Shown here one piece after another: positions 39,591 through 45,538 of a DNA stretch of 64,000 nucleotides (positions are counted from its first letter, which is position 1; each line of letters begins with the position of its first letter). Source of the stretch: Halogeometricum rufum. Lineage in GTDB: Archaea; Halobacteriota; Halobacteria; Halobacteriales; Haloferacaceae. The notes beneath the pieces are model-generated. The model saw only the letters and a list, made by a program, of their open reading frames with translations, did not search any database and was not told the origin of the DNA. The stretch spans positions 1,054,001 to 1,118,000 of the forward strand of contig NZ_FOYT01000001.1 of the NCBI RefSeq assembly GCF_900112175.1, read 5' to 3'. The position numbers and the translations under genes were made by a program.

Positions 39591-40997
39591 ATGGCACGGG
39601 ATAACAGGTCCCTCAATAGACGAGACTTGTTGAAAGCGGCAGGCGCCAGCACCGTCGGAATCGCGGGACTGGCCGGCTGCTCAGGAAACGGCGGGGAACA
39701 GACCGACGGGGGTGGTGGCGACCAGACGGGCGGGGGCGACACCGACTCCGGCGGCGACGGCGGGAGCGAAGACTACCCGGCGCTCGGCAACTACCCCATC
39801 GAGGGCGACACGGCCATCTTCGGGTTCAACGTCCCGCAGTCCGGACCGTACGCCTCGGAGGGGCAAGACGAGCTTCGAGCGTATGAGCTCGCGGTCAAGC
39901 ACCTGAACGAGGGCGGGGGCTGGGTCGACAGCCAGTTCGACGACCTGTCGGGCGACGGCGTCCTCGACTACACCATCGACTACGTGGACGGGGACACCGC
40001 GACGGACGCCGACACCGCGCGGCAGTCGGCGTCGCGGATGATCCAGCGTGACAACGCCATCATGGTGTCCGGCGGCTCGTCCTCGGCGGTGGCCATCGCC
40101 GTTCAGGGGCTGTGTCAGAACGAGAACGTCCTGTTCATGGCGTGTCTGACGCACTCGAACGACACCACCGGCAAGGACTGCGCCCGCTACGGGTTCCGCG
40201 AGATGTTCAACGCCTACATGACCGGACAGGCGCTGGCACCCGTGGTCGCAGAGGAGTACGGCGAGGACCTCACGTTCTACCAGTTGTACGCGGACTACAG
40301 TTGGGGGCAGACCCAGCAGGCGTCGATGGAGAAGTTCATGACCGAAGTCGCGGGCTGGGAACAGGCCAACTCCGTGGCGACGCCGCTCGGGACCAGCGAC
40401 TACCAGTCGTACCTCTCGGAGGCGGCCAACTCCGGCGCGGACGTGCTCATCCTGAACCACTACGGGCTGGACGGCGCGAACTCGGTGCAGCAGGCTGTCG
40501 ACGCCGGCATCGACGAGGACATGGAGATTCTCGTCCCGCTCTACAATCGGCCGATGGCCGAAGCGGCGGGCGGCGCCATCGAGGGCATCTACGGCACGGT
40601 GGCGTGGGACTCCCAGATAGACAACGAGCCGTCCAACCAGTTCACGCAGGCCTTCCAGGACGAGTACGACCGGGTCCCGTCCGGTCCGGCGCAGTTGGCG
40701 TACGCACAGACGCTGCAGTACGCCGCCGCCGTCGAGCGTGCGGGGACGTTCTACCCGCCGGAGGTAATCAAGCAACTCGAAGACTACGAGTACGACAACA
40801 TCGGCATGGGCGCGGAGACGATGCGCGCCTGCGACCACCAGGCGCAACGCGACGTGCCCGTCGTGCAGGGGCTCCCGGAGTCCGAACAGGAGAGCGGCCG
40901 GTACTTCGACATCATCAACATCACCAGCCGAGAGGAACTCGGCTACGCGTGTGACGAGGGGCCCGCGGCGGAGTGCGAACTCGGACCGGCCGAGTAG
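39591..40997 (+). CDS. livJ: Branched-chain amino acid/urea-type ABC substrate-binding lipoprotein
   Basis: A 468-residue solute-binding protein. The N-terminus has a Tat motif and lipobox (NRRDLLKAAGASTVGIAGLA then GC), so it is exported folded and lipid-anchored. A Gly/Asp-rich linker follows, then a type I periplasmic-binding fold with FGFNVPQSGPYASEGQDELR and MVSGGSSSAVAIAVQGLC, and DVLILNHYGLDGANSVQQAV later. Family members bind branched-chain amino acids, urea, short amides or other carboxylates; the ligand is not resolved. It heads the livJHMGF operon, with the permease genes 123 bases downstream. Confidence 0.9.
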   Translation: MARDNRSLNRRDLLKAAGASTVGIAGLAGCSGNGGEQTDGGGGDQTGGGDTDSGGDGGSEDYPALGNYPIEGDTAIFGFNVPQSGPYASEGQDELRAYELAVKHLNEGGGWVDSQFDDLSGDGVLDYTIDYVDGDTATDADTARQSASRMIQRDNAIMVSGGSSSAVAIAVQGLCQNENVLFMACLTHSNDTTGKDCARYGFREMFNAYMTGQALAPVVAEEYGEDLTFYQLYADYSWGQTQQASMEKFMTEVAGWEQANSVATPLGTSDYQSYLSEAANSGADVLILNHYGLDGANSVQQAVDAGIDEDMEILVPLYNRPMAEAAGGAIEGIYGTVAWDSQIDNEPSNQFTQAFQDEYDRVPSGPAQLAYAQTLQYAAAVERAGTFYPPEVIKQLEDYEYDNIGMGAETMRACDHQAQRDVPVVQGLPESEQESGRYFDIINITSREELGYACDEGPAAECELGPAE

Positions 40998-41031
40998 TAG
41001 GTTCGCCCGTAACGCCACCTTCATAATCTTT

Positions 41032-41124
41032 AGACCGAAACCCGAACTCGATACTGTCATGATAACTCACACCACGAACCGGACGGAGCGTATTTCGATA
41101 CGGACTCCGGGGAGGGCGCGATGA
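41032..41124 (+). other. Internal promoter and 21-codon leader ORF before livH
   Basis: A TATA-like ATAATCTTTAG at about 41032 lies 27 nt before an ATG at 41059. That ATG opens 21 codons (MITHTTNRTERISIRTPGRA plus R), stopping at TGA 41122-41124 inside the livH start (ATGA). GGGGAGGG (about 41109-41116) can serve livH as ribosome-binding site. The layout suggests an internal promoter with a leaderless mini-ORF coupled to livH. Confidence 0.5.
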
Positions 41125-42107
41125 GCGTCGTCTCCCAGTTGGCCACCATCCTGTTGAACGGGCTTCAGCAGGGCGCCATCTACGTGCTCTTGGCCGTCGG
41201 ACTCTCTATCATCCTCGGGACGCTGAAGTTCGTCAACTTCGCGCACGGGGCGCTCTACCTCATCGGAACGTACGCAGGACTGTTCATCGCGCTCGACATC
41301 ACGCTCTCCTCGGGGAAGCTTCAAGAGTGGGGATACGCCGACTTCGGCCTCGGCTGGGGGTTCCTCGCGGCCCTCGTGTTGGTCCCGCTCTTCGTCTTCG
41401 CCATCGGTCTCCTGATGGAGCGGTTCCTCGCGCGCCCGTTCTACGACCGGCCGGACACCGACCAGATTCTGGTCACGTTCGGACTGGCCATCGTCGTCCA
41501 GGAACTGTTCCGCATCCTGTTCGGGAGCAACAGCCTCCCGTTCAACCAGCCCGAGTACATCCTCTCGGTCATCCCCGTCTCCGGGCCGATGCAACTGCCC
41601 ATCGTCGGGAACTTCCCGCGGTGGCGGCTCTGGGTCATCGGCATCACGGCCGTCCTCGTCGGCATCGTCTACCTGCTGGTCGAGCACACCGACTTCGGCC
41701 TGGTCGTCCGGGCCGGGACGCGCGACGCCGAGATGGTCCGACTCCTCGGCATCAAGATATCGCGACCGTACCTCGTCGTCTTCGGCATCGGCGCGGCCCT
41801 CGCGGGCGTCGCCGGCGTCGTCGGCGGTCCGCTGAACGTCGTCAACCCCACCGTCGGCATGAACATCCTCGTCCCCGCGTTCCTCACCGTCGTCATCGGC
41901 GGCGTCGGCACCATCGCGGGCGCGGTGGTGGGCGGCCTCATCATCGGACTGGTACAGGCGACGCTCATCGGCCTGCCGTCGGTGACCATCGCGTCGTTCA
42001 CGCTGAACTTCTCGCCGTGGTCGCAGGTGGGGCTGTACGCCATCGCGGCCATCATCCTACTCGTCAGACCGCAGGGCATCCTCGGTGACGAGGAGGTGGC
42101 CCCATGA
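41121..42107 (+). CDS. livH: Branched-chain amino acid-type ABC permease LivH
   Basis: A 328-residue inner permease with about eight to nine helices. It begins SVVSQLATILLNGLQQGAIY and has the family motif LGTLKFVNFAHGALYLIGTY, plus VRAGTRDAEMVRLLGIKISR in the ATPase-coupling loop. LVPAFLTVVIGGVGTIAGAV follows near the C-terminus. It overlaps livM by ATGA. With livM it forms the membrane channel of the importer. Confidence 0.93.
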   Translation: MSVVSQLATILLNGLQQGAIYVLLAVGLSIILGTLKFVNFAHGALYLIGTYAGLFIALDITLSSGKLQEWGYADFGLGWGFLAALVLVPLFVFAIGLLMERFLARPFYDRPDTDQILVTFGLAIVVQELFRILFGSNSLPFNQPEYILSVIPVSGPMQLPIVGNFPRWRLWVIGITAVLVGIVYLLVEHTDFGLVVRAGTRDAEMVRLLGIKISRPYLVVFGIGAALAGVAGVVGGPLNVVNPTVGMNILVPAFLTVVIGGVGTIAGAVVGGLIIGLVQATLIGLPSVTIASFTLNFSPWSQVGLYAIAAIILLVRPQGILGDEEVAP

Positions 42108-43270
42108 GCGACCGAAACACGACCGGCGAGGGAAGCGCCAACGCCACGAGCGACGGCGGCGCCGTCATCAGCGACGGCTCGCTCGTCGCCCGCTGGGAGG
42201 CGATTCGAGAGCGCGAGGTGACGGTGGTCGGACTGACCGTCATCGCCGTCGCCCTCTTCCCGTGGCTGTTCTCCCGCGCGCCGGTGGTCAGCGACCTGCT
42301 GCTCGGCTACCAGTCGCTGGCGACGCTGATGCTCATCTGGGGCATCTTCGCCGTCGGCTTCGACCTGCTGCTCGGTTACACCGGCCTGCTGTCGTTCGGC
42401 CACGCGGCGTTCTGGGGCGGGGCGGCGTACGTCGCCGGCATCGTGGCGAACAACGTCTCCGCGGACCCCATCGTGATGGTCGTCTCGGGGACGGTGTTCG
42501 CCATCCTGCTGGCGTGGGTTCTCGGGTTCCTGTCGCTGCGACGCGGCGGCATCTACTTCAGCATCCTCACGCTGGCGTTCGGACAGATGCTCTACTACAT
42601 GTCCGCGGCACCGCTGGCGTTCCTCACGGGCGGGGAGAACGGGCTGACCGGCATCTCGGTCGGTGCGCTGTTCGGCCAGTTCCACCTCGAGTCCGAACTG
42701 CCGTCGGTCGCGGGCACGCTGCTCGGTAACTGGATGTACCTGTTCGTCGCCGTCTTCGCCGTCCTCGCCGTCGCGGCGGCCTATCGCATCCTCAACTCGC
42801 CGTACGGGATGGTGTTCCGCGCCATCCGCGAGAACGAACAGCGCGCGGAGTTCGTCGGACTCAACGTCTGGCGCTACAAGCTGATGGCGTTCATCATCTC
42901 CGGCGCGTTCGCGGGCGTCGCGGGGAGCCTGTTCACCATCCACGGATCGTACGTTCCGCTCCAGTCGCTCTACTGGACGGAGTCCGGCGAAATCGTCATC
43001 ATGACCGTCCTCGGCGGCACCGCCTCGCTGTTCGGCCCGATAGCCGGCGCGGGGCTCTACCTCTACGTCGAGAACATCGTCAGCGGGGTCCAGACGCTCT
43101 ACCTGCCGTTCACGCAGGTCGTCCTCGTTCAGGACTTCGGGACGTACTGGCACCTGCTGCTCGGACTGGTGTTCGTCGTGGTCATCTGGGTGGCCCCCAG
43201 CGGTATCTGGGGCGGGGTGTCCGACCTGCGCTCGTCCGTCCGCAACCTCGTGGGAGGTGACCGTCGATGA
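42104..43270 (+). CDS. livM: Branched-chain amino acid-type ABC permease LivM
   Basis: A 388-residue permease with an unusually long hydrophilic N-terminal tail (~35 residues, Asn/Ser/Gly-rich) before about ten helices. Family features are DLLLGYTGLLSFGHAAFWGG and GGIYFSILTLAFGQMLYYMS, then AIRENEQRAEFVGLNVWRYK, the coupling-loop signature. It overlaps livG by four bases (ATGA), so translation is coupled. Confidence 0.93.
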   Translation: MSDRNTTGEGSANATSDGGAVISDGSLVARWEAIREREVTVVGLTVIAVALFPWLFSRAPVVSDLLLGYQSLATLMLIWGIFAVGFDLLLGYTGLLSFGHAAFWGGAAYVAGIVANNVSADPIVMVVSGTVFAILLAWVLGFLSLRRGGIYFSILTLAFGQMLYYMSAAPLAFLTGGENGLTGISVGALFGQFHLESELPSVAGTLLGNWMYLFVAVFAVLAVAAAYRILNSPYGMVFRAIRENEQRAEFVGLNVWRYKLMAFIISGAFAGVAGSLFTIHGSYVPLQSLYWTESGEIVIMTVLGGTASLFGPIAGAGLYLYVENIVSGVQTLYLPFTQVVLVQDFGTYWHLLLGLVFVVVIWVAPSGIWGGVSDLRSSVRNLVGGDRR

Positions 43271-44094
43271 GTTCCGACGCCGGAGACGGCTCCGACCGCG
43301 AGTCGACGCCGACGCCGACCCCCGATGCAGGTTCGGAACCGCTGTTGCAGACGCACGGTCTCACGAAGGAATTCGGCGGCCTCGTCGCCACCGACGACGT
43401 CGACCTGACGGTCGAACGCGGCGAACGCGTCTCCATCATCGGACCGAACGGCGCGGGCAAGTCCACGCTCATCAACCTCATCACGCGGCGTCTCGACCCG
43501 ACCGAAGGCGACATCCGGTTCAAGGGCGAGTCCATCGTCGGGATGGAACCGCACGAGGTGGTGCAACGAGGCGTCTCGAAGTCGTTCCAGACCGCCTCCA
43601 TCTTCCCCGACCTGACGGTGAGAGAGAACGCAGAGATAGCGGCGCTCGCCGCCGAACAGGGCGACTTCGGATTCAACTTCTTCACCCACCGGAACAAACT
43701 GACCGACGTCCACGAGCGCACCGAGAACACGCTGGACGCGGTCGGCCTGTTGAACCAAGCGCACACGGACGCCGAGGACCTCCCCTACGGCGACAAGCGC
43801 CGCCTCGAAATCGGCATCGCCCTCGCGGCCGAACCGGACCTGCTCCTCATGGACGAACCCACGGCCGGGATGTCGCCCGAGGAGACCAAGGCGACGGTCG
43901 ACCTCATCGAGGAGGTCAAAGAGGAACTCGGGCTCACGTTCGTCCTCGTCGAGCACGACATGGAGATCGTGTTCAGCATCTCCGACCGCATCGTCGTGCT
44001 GAACCGCGGGCAGGTCATCGCCGAGGGGACGCCGGAGGAGATTCGCGGCAACCCCGACGTGCAGGAGGCCTACCTCGGAGGTGTCGAACTGTGA
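43267..44094 (+). CDS. livG: Branched-chain amino acid-type ABC ATPase LivG
   Basis: A 275-residue ATPase. An acidic, Ser/Thr-rich tail of about 25 residues precedes LLQTHGLTKEFGGLVATDDV. Walker A is GPNGAGKSTL and the Q-loop region is VSKSFQTASIFPDLTVREN. The signature is atypical, LPYGDKRRLEIGIAL, as in LivG proteins; Walker B is LLLMDEPTAGMSPEET. The switch His is in LVEHDMEIVF. It overlaps livF as GTGA. Confidence 0.94.
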   Translation: MSSDAGDGSDRESTPTPTPDAGSEPLLQTHGLTKEFGGLVATDDVDLTVERGERVSIIGPNGAGKSTLINLITRRLDPTEGDIRFKGESIVGMEPHEVVQRGVSKSFQTASIFPDLTVRENAEIAALAAEQGDFGFNFFTHRNKLTDVHERTENTLDAVGLLNQAHTDAEDLPYGDKRRLEIGIALAAEPDLLLMDEPTAGMSPEETKATVDLIEEVKEELGLTFVLVEHDMEIVFSISDRIVVLNRGQVIAEGTPEEIRGNPDVQEAYLGGVEL

Positions 44095-44836: not shown

Positions 44837-45538
44837 ATGTCGACGGACACCCCTCCCCACGGACGCGCGGACCCCGAGGCGGCCCTCGACAGACTCGTCG
44901 AACTCGGCGCGGTGGCGGAGGACGAAGACGGCAGTCTCTCCACCACGCCCGCCTTCGAGAGCGACCGCCGGGTCTACCGGAACACGTACGACTACATGGG
45001 AGACGACGGCGTCGCCGACACCGTCGCGGACCTGTTCGGCGTCGAGAAGGAGGCGGCGCTCGACCTCCTCGAACGCGGCGAGGTGACGAGCGAGGACGTC
45101 GTCGCGTACCTCGCCATCCAATCGTTCGCCGACGAGTCGCTCGAAACGGCCGAACACGCCATGATGGCGGAACTGCTCGTCCGACTCGGTCCGGACACGC
45201 CCGTTCCGGCCGACGTCGAGGAGGTCGACGACGACTCCTACCGAGCGTTCCTCGACGACAACCCGCACGCGGTGCTCACGGTGTGGAAGCACGACTGCGA
45301 CCCCTGCGAGGCGATGAAGGGCGACGTCGCGGCGATTCTCGAACTCGTGCCCGACGGCGTCGCAGTCGCGGGCGTCGACGGTGAGAACGTGCCCGAGTTC
45401 CGCGCGGCGTTCGACGTCGACGCCGCGCCCGCGGTGCTCTGTTTCCGAGACGGCACGCTCGACGCGGTTGCGACCGGACGAAAACGACCGGGCGAACTCG
45501 GTGCACTGTTCGCCGACGTGTACGACGCGCCGGCGTAA
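44837..45538 (+). CDS. Thioredoxin-like protein with N-terminal extension, end of liv operon
   Basis: A 233-residue protein. The C-terminal ~110 residues are a thioredoxin fold with the redox motif HDCDPCEAMKGDVAA (CxxC), the region FRAAFDVDAAPAVLCFRDGT carrying the cis-Pro, and a GRKRPGELGALFADV end. The first ~125 residues form a separate acidic domain with RNTYDYMGDDGVADTVADLF and LLERGEVTSEDVVAYLAIQS; I do not recognise it. It begins two bases after livF, so it is very likely co-transcribed. Why a redox protein sits in a nutrient-import operon is unclear. Confidence 0.85.
   Translation: MSTDTPPHGRADPEAALDRLVELGAVAEDEDGSLSTTPAFESDRRVYRNTYDYMGDDGVADTVADLFGVEKEAALDLLERGEVTSEDVVAYLAIQSFADESLETAEHAMMAELLVRLGPDTPVPADVEEVDDDSYRAFLDDNPHAVLTVWKHDCDPCEAMKGDVAAILELVPDGVAVAGVDGENVPEFRAAFDVDAAPAVLCFRDGTLDAVATGRKRPGELGALFADVYDAPA

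Follow-up and report, generated by a model that had tools for sequence, protein, structure and literature searches.

In the genome of Halogeometricum rufum, the gap between livJ and livH contains a mini-cistron of 21 codons, whose stop codon overlaps the start codon of livH and which has counterparts in related genomes. Our preferred interpretation, to which we assign a probability of about 0.72, is that this mini-cistron is kept as a ribosome relay and not for the peptide it encodes. The relay is favoured because the reading frame and the overlap are kept while the peptide and its length are free to vary, and because livH exhibits an excess of Shine-Dalgarno-like signals. The mini-cistron is probably leaderless. 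According to the proposed mechanism, an internal promoter with a TTTAGA box would start a transcript at the ATG of the mini-ORF or within a few bases of it, and the 5'-terminal AUG would load a ribosome by the leaderless route that is usual in haloarchaea. The ribosome would cross ~20 codons and reach the end of the mini-ORF, which contains the Shine-Dalgarno-like GGAGG of livH, and termination at the TGA would lead to reinitiation at the overlapping livH AUG. Overlaps of 4 nt would then pass the ribosomes on through livM, livG and livF.

The window, i.e. the whole stretch of 64,000 nucleotides analysed here, carries livJ, livH, livM, livG and livF in this order on one stretch, as a haloarchaeal liv operon. 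It comprises a gene for a livJ-type substrate-binding protein (39591..40997, forward strand; PF13458, E=5.5e-70), the permease gene livH (41121..42107, forward strand; PF02653, E=7e-31), livM (42104-43270) and livG (43267-44094), the last two delineated from their ORFs and Pfam matches, and the Pfam matches agree with the identities of all four genes. In the comparison of LivH sequences the closest named relatives were found in Halogeometricum limi and H. pallidum. The gap between livJ and livH is 123 nt long, and the genes that follow overlap one another on the forward strand, livH and livM by ATGA (42104..42107), livM and livG by ATGA (43267..43270), and, in this window, livG and livF by GTGA (44091..44094). 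An RTGA motif is present at the livH/livM junction in 68 of 69 testable loci, its frame agreeing with that of the LivM match in 62 of them, and an in-frame RTGA was found at the livM/livG junction in 26 of 44. Close behind livF there is an ORF ending at 45538, whose protein contains CDPCEAMKG and appears thioredoxin-like by eye, and which may also belong to the operon.

The mini-cistron MITHTTNRTERISIRTPGRAR (41059..41124, forward strand) was delineated from the sequence and from its counterparts in relatives, with a predicted leaderless start at 41059. Its ATG is read at 41059-41061 and its TGA at 41122-41124, so that the TGA overlaps the ATG of livH (41121-41123) in the tetranucleotide ATGA (41121..41124, forward strand), which is there because the second codon of livH encodes Ser. 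The 3' end of the mini-ORF includes the Shine-Dalgarno-like sequence GGGGAGGG (41109..41116, forward strand), whose GGAGG agrees with the complement of the anti-Shine-Dalgarno sequence over 5 nt. Upstream, a TATA-like box TTTAGA (41029..41034, forward strand) is placed such that its first T precedes the A of the mini-ORF ATG by 30 nt. The preliminary description had noticed a TATA-like box, a start codon, a Shine-Dalgarno-like sequence and an ATGA overlap together in the livJ-livH gap, and these were borne out to within a few bases; the position from which it counted the element, 41032, falls inside the TTTAGA box. Its proposal that a promoter-like element and livH are separated by an ORF that is coupled and probably leaderless is likewise supported.

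A Shine-Dalgarno match of at least 5 nt was found in 19 of the 32 livH representatives (defined below). Among genes of the own genome such a match occurs in 24 of 241 that follow a gap of at least 55 nt, and in 35 of 73 that follow a gene on the same strand at 10 nt or less. By its match rate livH therefore resembles an operon-internal gene, although livJ ends ~120 nt away. The sequence GGGGAGGG is best read as the reinitiation signal of livH itself.

The anatomy of a single gap is a poor guide, since one frame of a promoter-containing spacer may be open by accident and the ATGA may be provided by Ser or Thr at the second codon of livH, which indeed accounts for this tetranucleotide. In dinucleotide shuffles the probability of a coupled ORF ranged from 0 to 27% over individual gaps and amounted to 6% for the gap in the window, which alone is unconvincing, and therefore livJ-livH gaps were gathered from relatives. 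Of 60 related genomes searched at the DNA level 33 yielded matches, a named collection contributed 51 loci, and among 392 genomes of the order a search with the protein identified 104 with a LivH at E<=1e-60; 77 additional stretches were retrieved. The total came to 128 distinct loci, including 108 with at least 50% LivH identity; loci below this threshold were kept apart from the main count, from which the unrelated L022 and L025 were discarded altogether.

The overlap of stop and start that characterizes a translationally coupled pair is present at 41121-41124 and in 97 of the 108 livJ-livH gaps, if one counts ATG-initiated ORFs of at least 10 codons with the stop overlapping the livH start (at +1 or -2), the remaining 11 livH starts falling outside this strict rule. 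With the stop allowed anywhere from -12 to +14, a mini-ORF was found in 103 of 108 loci. Even under the relaxed rule there was no such ORF in five of the 108 loci (L013, L014, L050, L061 and L171), in three of which (L050, L061 and L171) the livH start may be wrongly assigned. Over the main set the mini-ORFs comprise 10-77 codons, the commonest lengths being 18, 21 and 22. The loci were grouped at 80% nucleotide identity over the first 300 nt of livH into 32 clusters, which are not fully independent, and a coupled ORF was found in 24 of the 32 cluster representatives, compared with 3.94 expected from dinucleotide shuffles. Among the eight representatives that fail the strict rule, L114, L160, L161 and L170 have the stop at +14, +7, -5 and +4, respectively, while L013, L014, L050 and L171 have no ORF.

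The frame itself is strongly biased. ATG triplets in the gaps of the representatives fall 40 times in the relay frame and six times in each of the other two (p=1.5e-10), and if a single ATG per cluster is considered, namely the first one beyond -20, 28 of the 30 clusters that possess one have it in the relay frame (p=9e-12; two clusters have none). Moreover, the distance from the mini-ORF ATG to livH changes between lineages by multiples of three. The excess over the shuffles, the frame bias and the stepwise change in length all argue against a fortuitously open frame, which we consider extremely improbable and have rejected; the mini-ORF goes beyond chance because it is conserved across clusters. 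Conservation of the frame upstream of livH in relatives had been set as a check in the preliminary description, and was found. Between lineages the length and the peptide vary while the frame and the overlap stay. In two loci (L021 and L059) the livJ-livH gap is extended to 573 nt, compared with ~125 nt, and an 18-codon coupled ORF is still present. In L064, ~50 nt before livH, an apparent GTG is found in the same frame, at the position where Halorussus relatives have the ATG of an inner start, and a start codon may have been kept there through a change.

Such an element could be a general property of genes preceded by a spacer. A control was made in 400 kb of the own genome, comprising 365 genes predicted by a home-made gene caller whose start choices are rough. 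Of the 171 genes there whose gap measures 55-250 nt, 10 have a coupled ORF, livH being among the ten (9 of 170 others), and so have 10 of 60 genes whose start overlaps a stop. The difference between livH clusters and other spaced genes (24/32 vs 9/170) is significant by the Fisher test (p=3e-17), also with the comparison restricted to starts that overlap a stop (24/28 vs 9/59, p=3e-10). The genome has 41 matches to permeases of the PF00528 family, 30 of which were examined as loci, and a coupled ORF outside a longer open frame was found in three of these 30, with 7 codons in L227, 7 or 11 in L230, and 43, at an internal start, in L231. As the element is missing from most of these own-genome loci, a general architecture of spaced genes was rejected. 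Among the 11 PF02653 permeases of the genome, a short coupled ORF is present at livH and at its counterpart in a second liv operon (L213). A search of a plasmid collection for an annotated relative of LivH gave no match.

If the frame is kept, one has to ask whether the peptide is kept with it. The mini-ORF might encode a functional microprotein, for instance a partner of LivH, and the substitution pattern offers some encouragement: among 27 disjoint close pairs, in which in-frame stop changes are absent by construction, the synonymous fraction of single-change codons in frame is 37/100, compared with 0.25 expected and with 0.21 and 0.28 when either of the other frames is read, differences at third positions number 69 vs 51 and 54, and the N-termini are well preserved within genera. 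This amounts to mild amino-acid constraint within clusters, and it exceeds what a pure relay would need (0.37 vs 0.25 synonymous). On the other hand, the peptides, as judged by eye, resemble one another inside each genus but seem unrelated from one genus to the next, their lengths range over 5-77 codons, the C-terminal end of the peptide coincides with the Shine-Dalgarno region, and the 21-residue peptide of the window is without a Pfam match. With weak constraint confined to clusters and no conservation of residues across genera, the microprotein was rejected as a very improbable explanation.

A different role for the peptide would be that of an attenuator, in which the rate of translation through the mini-ORF reports the supply of Thr and Arg or of branched-chain amino acids and sets the expression of livH. 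The position upstream of a transporter of the branched-chain type and the composition of the window peptide, with five Thr, five Arg and three Ile, speak in favour of such a mechanism, and the preliminary description had envisaged control by a Thr/Arg-rich leader. This part of the description was not supported. In 25 representatives (445 residues), Ile, Leu and Val together number 55 vs 56.7 expected from dinucleotide shuffles, Thr 52 vs 55.3, and Arg 72 vs 65.9 (z 0.9), and the peptide differs from genus to genus; the versions found at paralogues have as few as 5-8 codons. Nor was an unusual RNA fold found, the folding z of the mini-ORF with the livH start being on average -0.4 in the same number of representatives (range -3.1 to +1.7), and a scan of the bacterial type revealed no terminator-like site in 40900-41200. 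With no enrichment of Ile, Leu, Val, Thr or Arg and no unusual fold found, amino-acid-sensing attenuation is unsupported; having gained nothing from the tests of composition and folding, it was rejected as quite unlikely.

With the peptide set aside, we turn to how ribosomes would enter the mini-ORF. The profile of AT content around its ATG displays a modest peak and is weakly informative, and because of that a hexamer-spacing profile was adopted, with weights of our own and after the spacing had been noticed by eye. For the analyses of spacing and composition the 3'-most in-frame ATG giving 16 or more codons was chosen. The TATA-like score, averaged over 64 loci, has its maximum 30 nt before the chosen ATG, and the best hexamer (score of at least 9.5) lies 28-34 nt before it in 19 of 39 loci and 37-45 nt before it in 15 of 39. 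The latter spacing suggests a short 5' leader, and therefore not every mini-ORF need be leaderless. In the alignment, an 18-nt promoter-like block CTTCATAATCTTTAGACC (41019..41036, forward strand; columns C22-C39 of the window row) shows no change among five genomes from two genera, while the sequence of the mini-ORF varies; as the block is longer than a TATA box, it may include the site of a regulator. A promoter and terminator scan of the bacterial type gave no matches, as expected for an archaeon. In Haloferax volcanii, leaderless mRNAs make up 72% of the total according to a review (PMC7531240).

The same anatomy could also serve the opposite end. Ribosomes bound to the 5'-terminal AUG might block direct initiation at livH, the mini-ORF acting as a repressive uORF that damps the permease gene, and in E. 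coli mutations of 5'-terminal uORFs are reported to alter downstream expression to varying degrees (PMC4965119). We consider this unlikely, as the overlap and the Shine-Dalgarno match favour reinitiation, and overlapping gene pairs of such kind in Haloferax are described as positively coupled (PMC6728339). For Haloferax volcanii, termination-reinitiation has been demonstrated, and how much the Shine-Dalgarno sequence contributes differs from one gene pair to another (PMC6728339).

The relay we favour can be compared with several known systems. The 4-nt overlaps described for Haloferax volcanii (PMC6728339, PMC10666635) exhibit the same stop/start overlap and a Shine-Dalgarno-like motif in the upstream frame, but they join two ordinary genes at least on the upstream side, whereas the mini-cistron is a short frame that lacks a product conserved across genera and seems to be retained for the sake of its overlap. 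Small ORFs (15-31 aa) before normal genes have also been reported in Haloferax volcanii, from a search among 97 transcripts whose long 5' UTRs measure 150-250 nt (PMC4983044). A 62-nt leader falls outside this range; livH is absent from its uORF table, and the section concerned describes no overlap or cross-genus conservation. The uORFs with 5'-terminal AUG in E. coli (PMC4965119) share the leaderless-type AUG and the separate downstream gene with a Shine-Dalgarno sequence, but they are bacterial and the abstract states no conserved stop/start overlap. A short ORF that delivers ribosomes is a known concept (PMC12548453), and in such ORFs as well as in the bicistronic design (PMC5995908) a short first cistron likewise feeds the second, but the systems described there are engineered or bacterial, whereas the livH element is natural, archaeal and located upstream of one gene family. 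No earlier description of the livH mini-cistron was found in the open-licence literature, and the brevity of the element makes it likely to escape ordinary gene calling. Its retention across Halobacteria with a drifting peptide suggests that the delivery of ribosomes, and not a product, can be what selection preserves a frame for.

The second liv operon of the own genome (L213, C1 at ~1459278) encodes a LivH that is 28% identical to that of the window. Here a bridge ORF of 16 codons connects livJ2 and livH2: its ATG follows the stop of livJ2 at a distance of 1 nt (TAAgATG), and its TGA overlaps the GTG of livH2. Bridge ORFs of 9-26 codons that start 1-2 nt past the livJ2 stop were found in L251-L256, and none in L257-L267. 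A promoter upstream in one operon and the stop of a neighbour in the other, combined with the same downstream end, are what a relay would need.

A further and more tentative suggestion, which we regard as possible but rather doubtful, is that the mini-cistron acts as a transcript-specific gate of translation, its AUG being active solely as the 5' end of an mRNA, such that livHMGF would be translated from the transcript of the internal promoter but poorly from mRNA reading through from livJ. If so, the binding protein would be made in excess and the permease placed under a separate switch, with all four permease and ATPase genes fed via one ribosome entry point, and the bridge ORF of the second operon would represent the opposite setting, in which ribosomes from livJ2 are passed straight to livH2. 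The livH mini-cistron offers a natural test of a leaderless AUG gating two transcripts of one operon.

Distant paralogues of LivH (42-48% identity), which were kept apart from the main set, have a coupled ORF before them in 14 of 18 loci, with lengths of 5-23 codons, and the ATG triplets in their gaps are distributed among the three frames as 23:4:3. In the last 80 nt before livH in L172-L188, the ORFs that end in the overlap mostly comprise 5-13 codons, and some of them 5-8.
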